64,000 nucleotides of DNA from the NCBI GenBank assembly GCA_017469885.1, contig JAFUFO010000010.1, forward strand, positions 62,001-126,000, written 5' to 3'. The translations under genes and the position numbers were made by a program. A model generated the notes under the pieces. The model did no database searches, was not told the DNA's origin, and saw only the letters and a program-made list of their open reading frames with translations. Source of the DNA: Solobacterium sp. Lineage in GTDB: Bacteria; Bacillota_I; Bacilli_A; Erysipelotrichales; Erysipelotrichaceae. Below are positions 2,695 to 17,297 of the stretch, in pieces (the stretch's first letter is position 1; every line of letters begins with the position of its first letter).

Positions 2695-2768
2695 TGGTGC
2701 CGCTTGGCAGAATTGAACTGCCCGCTCATCCTTACCATGGATGTGTATTACCACTATACTAAAGCGGC
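2695..2768 (-). tRNA. tRNA-Thr (anticodon GGT)
   Basis: On the minus strand GCCGCTT and AAGCGGC form a perfect acceptor stem. The D arm is GTAT/ATAC, the anticodon stem CATCC/GGATG encloses the loop ATGGTAA (anticodon GGT, reading ACC/ACU), and GGCAG-TTCAATT-CTGCC is the T arm. The 3' CCA is encoded. Total length is 74 nt. Confidence 0.95.
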
Positions 2769-4484: not shown

Positions 4485-4558
4485 GCGCCCGTAGCTCAGC
4501 TGGATAGAGTATCAGATTCCGAATCTGAGGGTCGCAGGTTCGACTCCTGTCGGGCGCG
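4485..4558 (+). tRNA. tRNA-Arg (anticodon CCG)
   Basis: GCGCCCG and CGGGCGC form the acceptor stem; TCAGA-TTCCGAA-TCTGA is the anticodon arm with anticodon CCG, decoding CGG. The T arm (CAGG-TTCGACT-CCTG core) is standard. CCA is not encoded, unlike the tRNA-Thr upstream. Confidence 0.95.
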
Positions 4559-4640: not shown

Positions 4641-5171
4641 TTATTCGATGTTCAGACAGTGCCGGATCAGACGGTTCAGCAGACGGCGGACCTGTTCTTC
4701 CGAATACAGACCGCGTGCTTTGTTTTCGCTGATGACCTGTGTAACACCGGCGATCACATAGGTGAGAATCAGGTCTTCTTCCGCATTCTCATCATTTTTC
4801 TTTGCGAGGTTGACCAGCCAGCGGTTCAGCTTTGCATACTGCTGTGTTTCGCGGTCCTTCGCAAGATATATGAGATCCTCCCGGTGCGGCTCGAGCGCTT
4901 TGGAAAACTCCGTCAGATAACGATCCGGATCGGTGTAGATCAGACCGCGGAAGGGAAAGTTCTCAAAACACTCCTCAAGGATACGGTTTTCAACTGCTTC
5001 GTTAAGATCATATACATCTTCGAAATAATGATAAAACGTAGTGCGGTTGGAATTTGCGAGCCGACACAGCTCGGTGATACGGATGCGTTCAATTGGAAAG
5101 CGGCGCCGCAGTTCGAGATAGGCATCTCCGATCTTCCGTTTTGTAAGTTTTGTGCGTTGGCTGTTTTTCAT
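4641..5171 (-). CDS. TetR-type transcriptional regulator
   Basis: The 176-residue product has a TetR-like DNA-binding helix-turn-helix in its first 55 residues: the segment around ITELCRLANSNRTTFYHYF matches the helix-turn-helix and the following Tyr/Phe signature of the family. The remaining two-thirds is helical and would form the ligand and dimer domain. I chose ATG 5171 since the family usually starts just before such a KR-rich helix; neither this nor the upstream ATG at 5198 has a strong ribosome binding site, so the start is uncertain. It is divergent from the leader ORF and GTPase-nuclease gene, so the intergenic region may hold its operator, though I could not define a clear palindrome there. 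Confidence 0.75.
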   Translation of the reverse strand: MKNSQRTKLTKRKIGDAYLELRRRFPIERIRITELCRLANSNRTTFYHYFEDVYDLNEAVENRILEECFENFPFRGLIYTDPDRYLTEFSKALEPHREDLIYLAKDRETQQYAKLNRWLVNLAKKNDENAEEDLILTYVIAGVTQVISENKARGLYSEEQVRRLLNRLIRHCLNIE

Positions 5172-5211
5172 GTGTCTTATATTAACATCTGTAAACATTT
5201 TTGTGTGGGAT

Positions 5212-5240
5212 TTGCGTAAAAAAATCAAACAATTTATAAT
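5212..5240 (+). promoter_or_regulatory. Sigma-A promoter upstream of a short leader ORF
   Basis: TTGCGT (5212-5217), a 17 bp spacer and TATAAT (5235-5240) form a good promoter. Its transcript would start near 5247 and read through the 5252-5311 ORF into the hairpin at 5331-5367 before reaching the GTPase gene. Confidence 0.6.
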
Positions 5241-5251
5241 ATGGACGAGGC

Positions 5252-5311
5252 ATGAGTATGTCTGATGTAAGCGGTTCCGTTTCATTTGCGGATGTCCGTC
5301 TGTCAGGATGA
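5252..5311 (+). CDS. Putative leader peptide (19 or 17 residues)
   Basis: ATG 5252 opens a 19-codon frame (MSMSDVSGSVSFADVRLSG) ending at TGA 5309-5311. ATG 5258 would give 17 residues and has GAGG seven bases upstream, the better spacing. The frame lies between a good promoter and a terminator-like hairpin, with the ribosome-acting GTPase gene behind it. This layout resembles the attenuators in front of tet(M)-type and other ribosome-targeting resistance genes. Expression of the peptide is inference. Confidence 0.4.
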   Translation: MSMSDVSGSVSFADVRLSG

Positions 5312-5330
5312 ATCGTGCATACGAGAAGGA

Positions 5331-5367
5331 GGCAGAAGATCGGACCCGTTCCGGGATCTGCCTTTTA
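5331..5367 (+). terminator. Terminator-like hairpin ahead of the GTPase-nuclease gene
   Basis: GGCAGA and TCTGCC (with an imperfect inner stem around GGACCCGTTCC) are followed by TTTTATT. No complete gene other than the 5252 leader ORF lies upstream, so it is best read as a conditional terminator (attenuator). Confidence 0.5.
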
Positions 5368-5397
5368 TTCTGCTTTCTGCAGGAAATGAACGGATAA

Positions 5398-5406
5398 TGC
5401 TATAAT
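5398..5406 (+). promoter_or_regulatory. Extended -10 promoter abutting the GTPase-nuclease start
   Basis: TG-C-TATAAT at 5398-5406 is followed by only nine bases before ATG 5416, so transcription would start about three bases before the codon. No Shine-Dalgarno fits in this space. Confidence 0.6.
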
Positions 5407-5415
5407 TTTCGGGTT

Positions 5416-7893
5416 ATGAGAGAAATCTGTACCGGAATCCTGGCGCACGCGGACGCGGGAAAAACAACCTGTATTGAATCCTTTTTCGCCCATACCGGTG
5501 TGATCCGCACTCGCGGCAGGGTCGATCACGGGGATTCCGTATTTGATAATGATCCAAAAGAACGGGAACACGGAATTACGATTTACTCCAAGGAAGCAGG
5601 AATCACCTGGAAGGATACCCGGATCAATGTAATTGATACACCGGGCCATGTTGATTTTTCCGGTGAAATGGAACGGGTTCTTTCGGTTCTTGATCTTGCG
5701 GTTGTGCTGATCAGCGGACTGGACGGTGTCCAGCCGCACACCGTGACCATCATGAACTGTCTTGCCCATTATCATGTTCCGCTGCTGTTTTTTGTGAACA
5801 AGATGGATATTGCCCGCCGTTCGAAGGAAGATCTGCTTTCCGAACTGCAGGACCGGTTCGGAGAGTGCATCGACTGGAATGCGCCGGATGGGGAAGAAAC
5901 AATCGCAATGGTAAATGACCCGATGATGAATGCATTCCTCGAGACCGGCTCTGTTCCGGATGACCTCAAACGTCTTGCGGTAAGCAGACGGGAATGCTTT
6001 CCGGTATTCTTCGGATCTGCGCTGAAGGATGAAGGAATTGACGAACTTCTGGATGCGATTGCGCAGCTGAGCGAGCCGCTGCCGCTGCGGAATGAATTCG
6101 GCGCAAGGGTATTTAAAATCACAAACTCTCCGGAAGGACGTCTTGCGCATCTGCGGGTTACCGGCGGAACCCTGTATGCAAAACAGGCACTGAATGAGAC
6201 GGAAAAAGCGGACCGTATCCGGATCCTGAACGGGGCATCCTATGAAATCGTGACGGAAGCGCATGCCGGTGCGATCGCGGTTGTCTCCGGCACAAAGACG
6301 CTGGAAGCCGGCATGGGTCTTGGCTTTGAAGAAGATCTTGAACCGCCGATGATAGAACCGTGCCTTTCCTACACACTGGAAGTTTCCAGCTCAGTAGATC
6401 AGCGAGCATTATTTGAAGTGTGCCGCCGGCTTGCGGAAGAAGATCCGACACTTGCGGTTTCCTCGGATGAGACAACCGGAGCCGTGCATATTTCCATTAT
6501 GGGAGAGATGCAGAAGGAGATCCTGCGGTACCGGATCAAAGAAGAGACTGGTATCGATGTGGAATTCGGAAACGGCAGAATCGTCTATCGCGAAACCATC
6601 CATGAAACAACATACGGCGCCGGACACTTTGAACCGCTTCGTCATTTTGCGGAAGTTCATGTCCGTTTGGAACCCGGAGAGCGTGACAGCGGGATTACGG
6701 TGAGCAGTGAATGTTCGACGGATGATCTTCCGATGCACTGGCAGACGGCAATTCTTACGGCACTGCGTACGATTTCGCACCGCGGTGTTCTGACCGGCGC
6801 ATTACTCAGTGATGTGAAGATTATTCTGACTGCCGGCAAGGGACATCTCAAGCATACGGAAGGCGGAGATCTTCGTAACGCATCCAGGCGTGCAGTGCGG
6901 CAGGCACTGATGAAAACGGAAAGCATTCTGCTGGAACCATACTGCCGGTTCGAAGTGACAATGGCGCCGGAGTATCTCAGCCGCGCGCTCTATGACTTTG
7001 AACGCAAGGAGGCATCCGTTACGGTCAATGAAACCACTGCCGGAGTTCTGCTCAGCGGAGAAGGACCGATGCGCACACTGATGAACAGTCAGGCGGATGT
7101 GATTGCCTATACAAGGGGAACCGCACGCTGTGTGATTTCACCGATCGGATATCGGGAATGCAGAAATCCCGATCCGATCATTGCGGAAAGCGGCTATGAT
7201 GCGGAAAGCGATCTGCGCAATCCGGCCGGTTCCGTATTCTGTTCGCATGGTTCTTCGTTTACGGTGTCCTGGGACCAGGCGGATTCCTTTATGAGTATTC
7301 CTGTAAAGGACCGGGCACCGGAGGCAAGTTATTCTCACCGGACCTATCATGTCGGGGAAGATGAACTCAAGGCGATCATAGCGTCTGAGTCCGGTCATAA
7401 CCGCAACCCGAACAAGCAGATGCGGCAGACCCCGGAACCGGAAAAACAGCGGCCTGGAAAACCGAAACCGGTGCTTCCGGAATGTCTGATCGTGGATGGG
7501 TATAATCTTCTGCATCTTTCGGACATTGATACGACCGATATGTCCTATGCCCGCGAGCGTCTGATCGATGATCTTGCGGCATATCAGGCCTATGCGGACA
7601 AGAAGGTCATCGCCGTATTTGACGGTTACCGCAGACAGGACAATGAGGGTTCTTCCTATCAGACCGGAGGGCTGGAGGTTGTCTATACCCGTACCGGTCA
7701 GACTGCGGATGCCTATATCGAAAAACTTGTGCATGATCTGAAACAGAGCTTTGCGATTACCGTTGCGACAAGCGATGCACTGATTCAGAATTCCATTTTT
7801 GCCCAGGGAGCCATGCGGATCAGTTCCCGCATTCTGAGGCAGGAAATCGATCAGGCAAAAAAACTGTTTCTTCCGGAGAACAGTCGGTTATAA
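5416..7893 (+). CDS. TetM-like translational GTPase fused to a Rae1/YacP-type NYN endoribonuclease
   Basis: The 825-residue protein joins two ribosome-acting modules. Residues 1-640 are an EF-G/TetM-type GTPase: G1 AHADAGKTT (10-18), G2 region KEREHGITI, G3 DTPGH (74-78, with the catalytic His) and G4 NKMD (128-131), then domains II-V ending in a TetM-like LLEPYCRFEV and EYLSRALYDF stretch. After a Pro/Lys-rich linker, residues 690-820 match Rae1/YacP NYN nucleases: VDGYNLL (Asp 694), VFDGYR, GQTADAYIEKL, VATSD and GAMRISSR. Rae1 of Bacillus subtilis cuts mRNA in the ribosomal A site. The TetM loop that displaces tetracycline is replaced by a KHTEGGDLR-type sequence, so drug resistance is not implied. 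Best guess: a ribosome-rescue or stalled-ribosome factor. Confidence 0.85.
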   Translation: MREICTGILAHADAGKTTCIESFFAHTGVIRTRGRVDHGDSVFDNDPKEREHGITIYSKEAGITWKDTRINVIDTPGHVDFSGEMERVLSVLDLAVVLISGLDGVQPHTVTIMNCLAHYHVPLLFFVNKMDIARRSKEDLLSELQDRFGECIDWNAPDGEETIAMVNDPMMNAFLETGSVPDDLKRLAVSRRECFPVFFGSALKDEGIDELLDAIAQLSEPLPLRNEFGARVFKITNSPEGRLAHLRVTGGTLYAKQALNETEKADRIRILNGASYEIVTEAHAGAIAVVSGTKTLEAGMGLGFEEDLEPPMIEPCLSYTLEVSSSVDQRALFEVCRRLAEEDPTLAVSSDETTGAVHISIMGEMQKEILRYRIKEETGIDVEFGNGRIVYRETIHETTYGAGHFEPLRHFAEVHVRLEPGERDSGITVSSECSTDDLPMHWQTAILTALRTISHRGVLTGALLSDVKIILTAGKGHLKHTEGGDLRNASRRAVRQALMKTESILLEPYCRFEVTMAPEYLSRALYDFERKEASVTVNETTAGVLLSGEGPMRTLMNSQADVIAYTRGTARCVISPIGYRECRNPDPIIAESGYDAESDLRNPAGSVFCSHGSSFTVSWDQADSFMSIPVKDRAPEASYSHRTYHVGEDELKAIIASESGHNRNPNKQMRQTPEPEKQRPGKPKPVLPECLIVDGYNLLHLSDIDTTDMSYARERLIDDLAAYQAYADKKVIAVFDGYRRQDNEGSSYQTGGLEVVYTRTGQTADAYIEKLVHDLKQSFAITVATSDALIQNSIFAQGAMRISSRILRQEIDQAKKLFLPENSRL

Positions 7894-12631: not shown

Positions 12632-12900
12632 ATACAAAACCGATGAGGTGAAGATAACGGCAGATATGATCTCCAAGAGAGTCCGGGCAGGTGCGAGCCG
12701 GGCAGAACTACAGTCTGTCAAATGGATCACTGAGGGCAGGGTCAAAGGGTAACCGAGTATTCTCTGACGCAGACGGCAGCGTTACAGGCCAAAGGATATG
12801 TCTGTATCCGAGATGAGTGCGCATGTATAAATGCGAAAAAGGGTGGCACCGCGATTGAATATCGTCCCTGATGGAAGAGGATTCCGTCAGGGATTTTCTT
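12632..12900 (+). promoter_or_regulatory. T-box riboswitch (tRNA-Trp sensing) of the trp operon
   Basis: The leader contains the nearly invariant T-box AGGGTGGCACCGCG at 12840-12853, the AGAGAG element of stem I near 12676, and a terminator (TCCCTGA 12865-12871 with TCAGGGA 12887-12893, then TTTTCTTT). The T-box GGG and the CCCT of the terminator stem can instead pair to make the antiterminator. TGG at 12723-12725 on the 3' side of stem I is the probable specifier codon, which matches the downstream genes: uncharged tRNA-Trp would allow transcription of trpC-D-F-B-A. Confidence 0.9.
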
Positions 12901-12918
12901 TATCCGGAGGATTCAGAA

Positions 12919-13707
12919 ATGGACATACTTGAACAGCTCGCTGCTCACGCAGTAGAACGCGTGGAAGAGAAGAAACGAATCATACCGCCCGTTGAGATGA
13001 AGCGGCTTGCGGAAGAGGTAAAACCCGGGAACCGGATTTCCTTTGCGGAAGCGCTGGCAAAACCGGAGATGAGCTTCATCTGTGAATGCAAGAAGGCTTC
13101 TCCTTCAAAAGGACTGATCGATCCGGAGTTTCCGTATCTGCGCATTGCCAGAGACTATGAAACTGCAGGTGCGGATGCGATTTCCTGCCTGACGGAACCG
13201 AAATGGTTTCTCGGAAAAGATGAGTACCTTCGGGAAATCGCTGAAGCAGTTCGCATTCCCGTTCTGCGGAAAGACTTTACGGTAGATCCGTACATGATCT
13301 ATGAAGCGAAGGTTCTCGGAGCTTCGGCGATTCTGCTTATTTGTGCGATTCTTTCTCCGGAAGAACTGAAAGATGATATTCAGCTGGCAGAAAGCCTAGG
13401 ACTTGATGTGCTGACCGAAACGCATGACGAAGCGGAAATCGAAATGGCGGTCAATGCCGGCGCAGCGATTCTCGGCGTCAATAACCGGAACCTCAGAGAT
13501 TTCACGGTCGATATTCACAACAGCATACGTCTTCGGGCATTGGTTCCATCACACATCCGAATGGTAGCGGAAAGCGGCATCCGGACACGGAACGACATCC
13601 TCACCCTCGAACAGGCAGGCATCAGCGGAGTACTCATCGGTGAGGCTCTCATGAACGCAACGGACAAAAGAACAATGCTCAGAAAGCTGAAAGGAGAACC
13701 GTTATGA
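12919..13707 (+). CDS. trpC: Indole-3-glycerol phosphate synthase
   Basis: TrpC closes the ring of carboxyphenylaminodeoxyribulose phosphate to indole-3-glycerol phosphate, the fourth step from chorismate. The 262-residue product shows the signature [13 protein letters not shown], the IPVLRKDF strand with its catalytic Lys, VLTETHDE, the LGVNNRNL motif, VAESGI and GVLIGEALM, all in the (beta/alpha)8 order expected. I use ATG 12919, nine bases after GGAGG, rather than the upstream in-frame ATG that lies within the T-box terminator. It is the first gene after the T-box and overlaps trpD by 4 bp. No trpE or trpG precedes it. Confidence 0.96.
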
Positions 13708-14729
13708 TCCGCGAAGCAATTGAAAAGATTTCCAACAAAGGAGACCTCACTTACACAGAGGCCTACACGGTCATGAATGAAATCATGTCAGGGGAAACCA
13801 CGCCGACACAGAACGCCGCATTCCTTGCGTCATTGTCGACAAAGAGCACGAAAGCCGAAACCATTGACGAGATTTCCGGCTGTGCTGCCGCGATGCGTGA
13901 GCACGCGACACCTGTAAAGCATGAAGGCATGGAAGTACTGGAAATTGTCGGCACCGGCGGAGACGGCGCACATTCCTTCAATATCTCCACGACCGCCGCG
14001 TTTGTCATTGCGGCTTCCGGAATCAAGGTAGCCAAGCACGGAAACCGGGCTGCTTCATCTCTCAGCGGAACGGCAGACTGCCAGGAGGCACTCGGCGCAA
14101 ATATCAACCAGGACCCTGCGCAGGCAGAGGATCTTCTGAAACGGGTCGGAATGTGCTTCTTCTTTGCGCAGAAATATCACAGTGCCATGAAATACGTCGG
14201 TGCGATTCGGAGAGAACTTGGCTTCCGCACGGTATTCAATATTCTCGGACCGCTCACGAATCCTGCAAAACCGGAATACTTTGTGCTTGGTGTATATGAT
14301 GAATATCTGGTCGAGCCGCTGGCAAAAGTACTCGATAAACTCGGTGTAAAACGGGCATTTGTCGTATACGGACAGGAGAAACTGGATGAAATTTCTGCGG
14401 TTGGACCTACCACTGTGTGTGAACTGAAAGAAGGCTATTACCGCACGACGGTAATCCGTCCGGAGGACTTTGGATTAAGCAACGGAAAAAAGGAAGAACT
14501 GGTCGGCGGAACACCGCAGGAAAATGCCGAAATCACCAAAGGCATCCTCAGCGGAACGATCCGTGACACAAAGCGGAATGCGGTTGTTCTGAACGCCGGT
14601 GCGGGTATCTTTATCGGCGGGAAAGCAGAATCCTTTGAAGAAGGAGTCCGGATGGCAGAGGAACTGATCGATAACGGTGCGGCGTATCGGAAGATGGAAC
14701 AGTATATTGCGGAGACGGCAGCCTTATGA
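13704..14729 (+). CDS. trpD: Anthranilate phosphoribosyltransferase
   Basis: TrpD attaches phosphoribose from PRPP to anthranilate. The 341-residue product carries the [19 protein letters not shown] glycine-rich PRPP loop, KHGNRAASS just after it, the [16 protein letters not shown] block and a late [11 protein letters not shown] segment, all family hallmarks, and the length is typical. There is no glutamine amidotransferase domain fused to it, so it is a stand-alone TrpD. ATG 13704 overlaps the trpC stop as ATGA and the end overlaps trpF the same way, indicating translational coupling along the operon. Its substrate anthranilate is not made by any gene in the window. Confidence 0.96.
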
Positions 14730-15340
14730 CATTTGTAAAACTATGCGGCCTTCGAAGCTGGCGCGATGCGCAGGCATTCAACGAGTCCGGTGCTGACCTT
14801 GCGGGCATGATCCTGTCACCGGGATACCGCCGGTCGATCACCAGTGGGAGTGCAAGAGGAATCCGTCAGGCGCTGCGGGATGATATTCCCTTATGCGGTG
14901 TCTTTGTGAATGCAGAACTTGGGCGGATCGTTTCCTACACCGAACAGGGACTCATTGACGTGATTCAGCTTCATGGTCAGGAAAGCAACGAATACATCGA
15001 TACGGTACGCGTTCATTGTCCGCTTCAGAAAATCATCAAGGCATTTGTGGTGAAGAATGCCTCCGATATTGAACTGGCAAATAACTCCCATGCGGATCTT
15101 GTTCTGCTCGATGGCGGAACCGGGCAGGGAAATGGATTTGATTACAGCCTGATTGAAGGTATGCGGCGTCCATATGTGCTTGCGGGCGGGCTTGACAGCA
15201 AAAATGTCGCTGCGGTGATCCGCCGTCTTCATCCCTATGGGGTGGATACCAGTTCGGGCATTGAGACCGACGGAAAAAAGGATCCGAAGAAAATGATCGC
15301 CTTTGTAGAAGCGGTAAGGAAAGAGGACAATCAACAATGA
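14726..15340 (+). CDS. trpF: Phosphoribosylanthranilate isomerase
   Basis: TrpF performs the Amadori rearrangement of phosphoribosyl anthranilate. The 204-residue product starts with the KLCGL motif whose Cys is the general base, has a [12 protein letters not shown] stretch, VIQLHGQE, a general-acid Asp region [10 protein letters not shown], and the closing [11 protein letters not shown] and GVDTSSGIE phosphate-binding segments. All are family-specific. Length is normal. The start overlaps the trpD stop (ATGA) and the end overlaps trpB. The position between D and B with C first gives the order C-D-F-B-A, common in Gram-positive operons. Confidence 0.95.
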
Positions 15341-16524
15341 CAGAAAACGGAAGATTCGGCATTCATGGAGGACAGTATATTCCGGAAACCCTGATGAATG
15401 CGGTGATTGAACTGGAAGAAGCATATAACCGGTATAAGGATGATCCCGAATTTAACCGCGAGCTTACTGATCTCTTCAATCAGTACGCAGGACGTCCCAG
15501 CCGTCTTTATTACGCAGAACGGATGAGTGAAGATCTCGGCGGCGCAAAGATCTATCTGAAACGGGAAGATTTGAATCATACCGGTGCGCATAAGATCAAT
15601 AACGTGCTCGGACAGGCTCTGCTCGCAAAGAAGATGGGAAAGACGCGGCTCATTGCGGAGACCGGAGCCGGCCAGCATGGTGTCGCAACCGCAACCGCAG
15701 CGGCGCTGTTCGGCATGAAATGTGTCGTATTCATGGGTGAGGAAGATACCAGACGACAGGCACTGAATGTCTATAAGATGAAGCTGCTCGGTGCGGAAGT
15801 AATCCCTGTCACGACCGGTACGGCAACGCTGAAGGACGCGGTGTCTCAGGCCATGCGGGAATGGACATCCCGGATCAGCGACACGCATTACTGCCTCGGC
15901 TCGGTGATGGGCCCGCATCCGTTTCCGACCATTGTCCGGGACTTTCAGGCGGTAATCTCAAAGGAAATCAGAGAACAGATTCTCGAAGCTGAGGGAAAAC
16001 TTCCCGCTGCGGTAATTGCCTGTGTCGGAGGCGGCTCCAATGCGATCGGTTCGTTCTATCACTTTATCGATGACTCTGAAGTGAAGCTGATCGGATGTGA
16101 AGCGGCAGGACGAGGAATCGATACGTTTGAGACAGCCGCTACAATCAATACCGGACGGCTTGGAATCTTCCATGGCATGAAGTCGTATTTCTGCCAGGAT
16201 GCCTATGGACAGATCGCACCGGTCTATTCCATATCGGCTGGTCTGGACTATCCCGGTATCGGCCCGGAACATGCTTACCTTCATGATATCGGCAGAGCAG
16301 AGTATGTCCCGGTAACCGATGAAGAAGCCGTTGATGCATTTGAATATGTTTCGCGGACAGAGGGAATCATTCCAGCAATCGAATCGGCTCATGCGCTTGC
16401 CTATGCGATGAAGTATGCGCCGACGCTGGCCAAAGACCAGAGTATTGTCGTTACCGTAAGCGGACGAGGTGACAAAGACTGCGTGAGTGTTGCCCGTTAC
16501 CGCGGAGAGGAGATCAGTGAATGA
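15337..16524 (+). CDS. trpB: Tryptophan synthase beta chain
   Basis: TrpB condenses indole with serine using pyridoxal phosphate. The 395-residue product has the PLP lysine in [11 protein letters not shown], the [14 protein letters not shown] loop, the phosphate-binding [10 protein letters not shown], and a [11 protein letters not shown] segment, which identify the major TrpB1 class that pairs with TrpA. The N-terminal [16 protein letters not shown] is also canonical. Length matches the family. It overlaps trpF and trpA by 4 bp each, so alpha and beta chains should be made in step. Confidence 0.97.
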
Positions 16525-17297
16525 GCCGGATCAGAGAAGCATTTGCCGGAAAGAAGGCATTTATTCCATTCATCACGTGCGGAGACCCGAATCTTGCGGT
16601 CACCGAACAGATCGTCCTGCGTGCGGTGGACGCAGGCGCAGATCTCATCGAACTTGGCATTCCGTTTTCCGATCCGACGGCAGAGGGGCCGGTTATCATG
16701 GAAGCGGATGAGCGTGCGCTGAAGGGCGGTGTAACGACAGATCAGATCTTTGAACTGGTACGGTCACTGCGCAGGACCGTTGCCATTCCGCTCGTCTTCA
16801 TGACCTATGCCAATGTGGTGTATTCCTATGGGAGCGAGCGATTCATGAAACAGGCATCCGAAGCCGGCATTGATGGACTGATCCTGCCGGATGTGCCGTT
16901 TGAGGAGAAAAATGAATTTCAATCTGTCTGTCACAGCTATGGAATCGATCTGATTTCCATGATTGCGCCGACGTCCGAGGGACGGATTGCCAGAATTGCC
17001 AGGGAGGCAGAAGGCTTTCTGTATATTGTCTCATCACTCGGTGTTACCGGTGTCCGCTCCAGTATCACATCGGATATCGGCGGAATGGTGAAGATCGTAC
17101 GTGAGAATACCGATCTTCCATGTGCGGTCGGATTTGGAATCTCCACCCCAGAACAGGCCGCAGCGATGGCAGCGCTGAGTGACGGCGCAATCGTCGGATC
17201 TGCGATTGTAAAACAGATCGGACAGTATGGGAAAGCTGCGGCTGAACCGGTCGCGGAATATATCCGCGCTATGGCGGATGCCGTGCACAGTCTTTGA
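16521..17297 (+). CDS. trpA: Tryptophan synthase alpha chain
   Basis: TrpA cleaves indole-3-glycerol phosphate and channels indole to TrpB. The 258-residue product shows [29 protein letters not shown] with the catalytic Glu and Asp region, [28 protein letters not shown] and a [10 protein letters not shown] phosphate-binding loop. These are the family blocks in order. The ATG overlaps the trpB stop and a strong terminator follows the stop by about 14 bases, closing the operon. Confidence 0.97.

Follow-up and report, generated by a model that had tools for sequence, protein, structure and literature searches.

A Rae1-type endoribonuclease fused to a Tet/EF-G-family GTPase in Erysipelotrichales and Clostridia

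Rae1 is an endonuclease that cuts mRNA in the ribosomal A site in a translation-dependent manner (PMC12320835, PMC10100781), while the tip residue Pro509 of TetM overlaps the tetracycline site (PMC7456112, PMC8161019). The two families have already been seen joined. Indeed, Tet proteins of ten Clostridiales species were described as having acquired a YacP-like NYN RNase domain (Atkinson 2015, PMC4342817), and the same work, in the two sentences that it devotes to them, suggested an antibiotic-resistance mechanism. Outside the principal publications on Rae1 (Leroy 2017, Condon 2018), the literature searched yielded no later treatment of this Tet-NYN fusion. Here, we analysed a stretch of 64,000 nucleotides (hereafter the window) from the genome of a Solobacterium sp., a 2.66 Mb draft assembly of 49 contigs, in which one protein carries Tet/EF-G domains and, C-terminal to them, a YacP-like NYN domain. 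Its architecture is not new and belongs to the kind published since Atkinson 2015.

Architecture of the fusion protein

The fusion gene (Table 1) is a single open reading frame of 825 codons with an ATG start and no internal stops. A preliminary description of this locus had proposed that one frame joins a complete GTPase to a C-terminal NYN domain, which was borne out, as Pfam domains I–V and NYN_YacP all lie within the uninterrupted frame and each of the motifs named in it (AHADAGKTT, DTPGH, NKMD, VDGYNLL, VFDGYR, TADAYIE and ATSD) is present. The GTPase half contains the hallmarks of the EF2-family superfamily (G1, DTPGH, NKxD and domains II–V, with domain II marginally under its cut-off), and the nuclease half scored 126 bits with NYN_YacP at a curated cut-off of 24.6. 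An AlphaFold2 model built with 38 aligned relatives (mean pLDDT 82.7) predicted a confident GTPase and a confident NYN domain, separated by a disordered stretch (residues 633–683) in which a short conserved DEEL helix is found.

Table 1. Features of the fusion gene and of its upstream region (window coordinates).
Feature	Position	Strand	Basis or remark
Upstream promoter, TATAAT -10 box	5235..5240	+	identical in all nine relatives with the RNA
Conserved structured RNA with terminator-like hairpin at its end	5246..5369	+	covariance model
TATAAT -10 box ending 9 nt before the ATG	5401..5406	+	Shine-Dalgarno absent
Fusion gene, EF-G/Tet-type translational GTPase and Rae1-type NYN endoribonuclease	5416..7893	+	ORF, Pfam, alignment
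G domain, residues 6–218	5431..6069	+	Pfam GTP_EFTU 1.2e-47
G-domain motifs: G1 AHADAGKTT, switch II DTPGH, NKMD, GSALK	within 5431..6069	+	motif comparison
Domain II, residues 228–299	6097..6312	+	Pfam EF-G_D2 8.9e-6, 26.2 bits (cut-off 27)
Domain III, residues 314–385	6355..6570	+	Pfam EFG_III
Domain IV, residues 388–501	6577..6918	+	Pfam EFG_IV
Domain IV tip loop GKGHLKHTEGGDLR, residues 474–487	6835..6876	+	Lys479 at the TetM Pro509 position
Domain V, residues 505–584	6928..7167	+	Pfam EFG_C
C-terminal extension, NPxGSVFCxHGxxFxVxW motif, residues 585–632	7168..7311	+	sequence comparison
Flexible linker, residues 633–683	7312..7464	+	pLDDT <50 in the model
Rae1/YacP-type NYN domain, residues 691–816	7486..7863	+	Pfam NYN_YacP 1.6e-36

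Among solved structures, ribosome-bound TetM was the best sequence match of the fusion (E 4e-66), with EF-G a close second. Nevertheless, the protein reached only 361 bits with the NCBIfam model tet_protect, under its curated cut-off of 775, and 256.6 bits with the EF-G equivalog, under the cut-off of 659.4, and is therefore not EF-G proper; two further EFG_IV proteins of EF-G size are encoded in the same genome. The TetM residues Ser508-Pro509-Val510 were aligned with Leu478-Lys479-His480, and both Lys479 and the main G-domain residues were invariant in 38 out of 38 full-length fusions. The NPxGSVFCxHGxxFxVxW extension was common to the fusion and to unfused relatives of about 650 residues, and was not found in the part of TetM that was compared. 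In the GTPase tree, these unfused relatives formed the sister group of the fused proteins (support 97 and 87, the latter for the fused clade), and TetM, on a long branch, and EF-G fell outside the clade that unites the two. The GTPase half thus belongs to a Tet/EF-G subfamily of its own, distinct from TetM, in which the fusion has a single main origin. This single origin rests on the GTPase tree, given that in the NYN tree fused and stand-alone proteins were broadly separated, with three label changes, and deep support was weak.

The nuclease half was likewise correctly assigned to Rae1 in the preliminary description. Searched separately, the NYN profile had Bacillus subtilis Rae1 (PDB 5MQ8/5MQ9) as its sole convincing match among solved structures (E 5.4e-39), and the domain folded alone (pLDDT 86) returned Rae1 as the top three PDB matches (TM 0.78 for 5MQ9). 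The acidic residues correspond as well, contrary to the second outcome that would have refuted the preliminary description, Asp694 (in VDGYNLL), Asp736 (VFDGYR), Asp765 (TADAYIE) and Asp787 (ATSD) being aligned with those of Rae1; together with N697 and S786 they were invariant in all 38 full-length fusions. The domain ends about 30 positions short of the end of the Rae1 profile, so that part of Rae1's contact with the ribosome may be missing. As a side observation, Clostridioides difficile plasmid records (12 records, plasmids of about 97–135 kb; e.g. NZ_CP149721.1, 48827–49234) encode an NYN protein 36% identical to the domain in the window.

Distribution of the fusion and loss of stand-alone Rae1

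The window genome has Solobacterium and other Erysipelotrichaceae as its nearest named relatives. The fusion was present in most sampled genomes of the window's genus and order, and also in Lachnospiraceae, Oscillospiraceae, Clostridium, Desulfosporosinus and others, including named isolates. At least 597 related stretches came out of a scan of public genomes, and in nearly all of the best 80 of these the nuclease lies in the same frame as the GTPase, which speaks against the two halves being separate proteins, the outcome that the preliminary description had named as fatal to its reading. The same architecture thus extends across Erysipelotrichales and Clostridia, with hundreds of relatives, and is common in gut Bacillota. 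Apart from the common ABC-ATPase and response-regulator genes, the 80 loci have no conserved neighbours, nor did the surroundings of the gene show a mobile context. Carriage by viruses was rejected, as a scan of viral_contigs for a fusion-like NYN returned no relative, and so was a role in anti-phage defence, for which a PADLOC match was absent.

Two kinds of exception were observed. In three relatives (L079, L284 and L062) the GTPase and the NYN domain are in different frames, each broken within the linker, which could reflect error, slippage or a programmed shift. Since at least one of the breaks, that of L062, coincides with a run of A, slippage or an error in sequencing is a likely cause. 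The other exception is a protein of 594 residues from a genome of the same family as the window's (G152, about 1.6 Mb and 99% complete; L061, 7846–9627, minus strand), which consists of a G domain, domains II and III, a linker with the DEE motif and the NYN domain. It lacks domains IV–V and keeps the G motifs and the NYN active site. Its join is in frame, with a linker sequence that is diverged rather than truncated, although the deletion could still be an assembly error. Though a single case, it suggests that what is essential is the combination of GTPase core and nuclease.

The main new evidence comes from the comparison with the stand-alone gene. NYN_YacP matched in 254 out of 392 Clostridia genomes, nearly always in a single copy. 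Among the 150 matches listed, 73 were in frames of at most 220 residues, i.e. stand-alone, and 74 in frames of at least 700 residues, i.e. fused. Six of the Clostridia genomes had two or more matches; on re-examination, the fusion and the stand-alone gene were both intact in only one of them (G697). In raw counts that ignore kinship, the two forms are therefore almost mutually exclusive. Where it was stand-alone (G560 and G697), the NYN gene was found 3' of rlmB and 5' of a sigH-like gene in the cysS-mrnC-rlmB operon, of which mrnC and rlmB are rRNA maturation genes; the ancestral slot hence reads mrnC-rlmB-rae1-sigH in these two genomes and rlmB-rae1-sigH in a third (G442). In the window genome, whose sole NYN protein is the fusion, the operon is present and rlmB is followed by sigH after a gap of 277 bp without NYN; the domain is thus not the free protein of about 170 residues in the mrnC-rlmB-sigH operon that is characteristic of Rae1. 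The same adjacency of rlmB and sigH without an intact Rae1 gene was observed in 16 of the 21 other fusion genomes examined, making 17 cases with the window genome, and the gene order differed in the remaining five. Moreover, decayed pieces of Rae1 were detected by tblastn in the slot of G765 (L242; E 2e-7 and 2e-5) and G834 (L256; E 5e-7), and a weak piece in that of G709 (E 0.005). G442 represents the converse case: Rae1 still occupies the slot, and the fused-clade GTPase of this genome (L123) ends before the nuclease. Taken together and leaving kinship aside, the empty slots, the remnants and this converse case form the pattern that functional replacement predicts, and the fusion appears to have replaced the stand-alone Rae1 gene in the bacteria that bear it.

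Unfused GTPases of the family were found in three out of nine genomes without NYN and in seven out of 20 genomes with a stand-alone Rae1. A constant companionship of the unfused GTPase with Rae1 was rejected on these numbers, and the link between the two before the fusion appears weak. The presence of the unfused protein both where NYN is lacking and in a part of the Rae1 genomes also implies that this GTPase has a job of its own, one that may persist in the fusion.

The region upstream of the fusion gene

Given the -10 box directly before the ATG (Table 1), the fusion mRNA is likely leaderless in the window's genus. Indeed, 11 out of 23 fusion genes of the genus had a -10 box 11–17 nt before the ATG and no Shine-Dalgarno sequence, where about one would be expected from shuffles and zero to one was seen in control windows; relatives with a TATAAT-like box and no Shine-Dalgarno are L069, L070, L182, L187, L189, L192–L194, L197 and L198. 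Among Clostridia fusion genes, an excess of -10 boxes before the ATG was not found, and most of them have a Shine-Dalgarno sequence. Two other genes of the window exhibit a weaker form of the pattern, so that the organism may habitually use leaderless starts.

Further upstream lies a conserved structured RNA, which the covariance model recovered in nine out of 70 genomes of the genus, once in each. It adjoins the fusion in eight of them and is located at a contig end in the ninth; in one RNA-bearing genome the gene further upstream is different and the RNA is still found. In ten of its pairs both partners have changed, and its covariation score was 0.367 versus 0.217 in shuffles, although this comparison is tilted in favour of the RNA by an alignment that had been fitted to the model. 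Rfam gave no match at the gathering or at a permissive threshold. An N-terminal extension of the fusion through this segment was rejected, since the frame is open in some relatives and closed in the window, and positions 5246–5369 are therefore read as non-coding. The RNA may attenuate the fusion gene or act as a small RNA in its own right. A divergent gene (window 4641–5285, minus strand), which by eye looks like a TetR-type regulator and whose likely coding part had no Pfam match, is kept beside the RNA and the fusion in most RNA-bearing relatives. Elsewhere in the window, a T-box leader (12634–12872, plus strand) directly precedes a trp-operon-like gene run (12871–17297), and Rfam identified two tRNA genes (4485–4558, plus strand, and 2698–2768, minus strand).

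Proposed mode of action and comparison with known systems

A true Rae1-type domain, a complete GTPase and the genomic place of Rae1 together make delivery to the ribosome the best reading, and the fusion probably cuts mRNA on ribosomes. We lean towards the view, with modest confidence, that it is a GTPase-escorted Rae1 which took over from the free protein and cleaves the mRNA in the A site of stalled ribosomes. According to this proposal, the Tet/EF-G-family half would bind the factor site of paused ribosomes and thereby recruit the NYN domain. Since the A site is the position assigned to both domain IV and Rae1, which would compete for it, they must act in turn and not together: domain IV would leave, with GTP hydrolysis perhaps timing the hand-over, and the NYN domain, on its flexible tether of about 50 residues, would enter the A site and cut the mRNA there. 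The message would then decay and the ribosome be rescued, e.g. by tmRNA, which is present in the window genome. A more specific version, which we offer tentatively and would not bet on, is a one-protein bacterial 'no-go' mRNA cutter in which the GTPase recognises a stalled ribosome and GTP hydrolysis withdraws domain IV and hands the A site to the tethered Rae1, a picture that would take in the G152-type shortening to a GTPase core and the nuclease.

The two halves might, however, be tethered and yet independent, with the GTPase doing a job of its own, be it ribosome protection, recycling or back-translocation, while the NYN half does that of Rae1, without coupling to GTP, such that the fusion merely fixes their ratio and place. 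The long disordered linker, the lack of a model with a fixed interface between GTPase and NYN, and the existence of the unfused GTPase alone, even without any Rae1, are in line with this idea. We nevertheless consider it rather unlikely, because one ancient fusion was retained across deep divergence while the free Rae1 gene was lost, and because the G152 protein dropped domains IV–V, which the GTPase's own function would need, and kept the G domain and NYN. Delivery of an enzyme for rRNA or tRNA processing to ribosomes would echo what Anantharaman and Aravind first proposed for NYN domains (cited in PMC4342817) and fit the position of the stand-alone gene beside mrnC and rlmB. It is very improbable, given that the direct homologue Rae1 is a ribosome-dependent mRNA endonuclease (PMC12320835). 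An assembly or frame artefact joining two adjacent genes, which the draft state of the assembly in 49 contigs and the split frames of three relatives might evoke, has a negligible probability and is ruled out by the recurrence of the fusion in hundreds of genomes as well as in named isolates.

The published suggestion, a protein conferring resistance to tetracycline or another A-site drug with an added RNase (Atkinson 2015), has in its favour that TetM is the closest solved structure by sequence and that RefSeq labels the Agathobacter rectalis member a TetM/TetW/TetO/TetS family tetracycline resistance protein. However, the shortfall at the curated cut-off (361 versus 775 bits) and the altered tip, in which TetM Ser508-Pro509-Val510 has become x-Lys-His with the Lys invariant, make tetracycline protection unlikely as the main function, as far as sequence can tell. 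Domain IV is missing altogether in G152, the gene occurs in a single copy per genome with neither a conserved nor a mobile context found, and the retention of the Rae1 domain along with the loss of the Rae1 gene would be left unexplained. We thus regard resistance as improbable and the present label as probably wrong. The same evidence weakens one part of the preliminary description, namely that the nuclease might be delivered to drug-bound ribosomes, since the tetracycline-displacing tip residues of TetM are not conserved; delivery of the nuclease to ribosomes as such stands as the best reading, with its active site intact and the fusion in the place of Rae1.

If the GTPase-escorted Rae1 reading is true, a large share of anaerobic Bacillota, common gut bacteria among them, would possess a ribosome factor that is driven by GTP and cuts mRNA, which public databases mislabel as a tetracycline-resistance gene, and resistance surveys would have to be corrected. 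The fusion would also offer a simple system in which to study how nucleases are brought to stalled ribosomes by translational GTPases, and since it stands in for Rae1, laboratory strains of B. subtilis lend themselves to a direct test of the idea.

Compared with known systems, TetM and TetO share the five-domain EF-G-like GTPase (about 27% identity) and a tip loop of equal length, which reads YSPVST in them and HxKHTEGGD in the fusion; the SVFC extension, the linker and the nuclease further set the fusion apart. The unfused Tet-like GTPases of Clostridia (about 650 residues, e.g. L206–L215) have the fusion's HxKHTEGGD tip and an SVFC-type extension, but neither linker nor nuclease. Rae1/YacP of B. 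subtilis has the same NYN fold (about 37% identity in the structural alignment) with all four acidic residues and the Asn, yet Rae1 is a free protein (stand-alone frames of about 170–190 residues) encoded in the mrnC-rlmB operon, whereas the NYN domain of the fusion, which stops earlier, forms the C-terminus of a GTPase encoded elsewhere in the genome. The Tet-NYN fusions of Atkinson 2015 (PMC4342817) have the same order as the window protein, a Tet-type GTPase and then a YacP-like NYN domain. Beyond that work, the fusion now appears as a widespread protein that replaces stand-alone Rae1 and is devoid of the tetracycline-displacing tip; what is new here is its near-exclusivity with Rae1, the loss of Rae1 from its slot with clear remnants in two genomes, the altered tip and the relative without domains IV–V.
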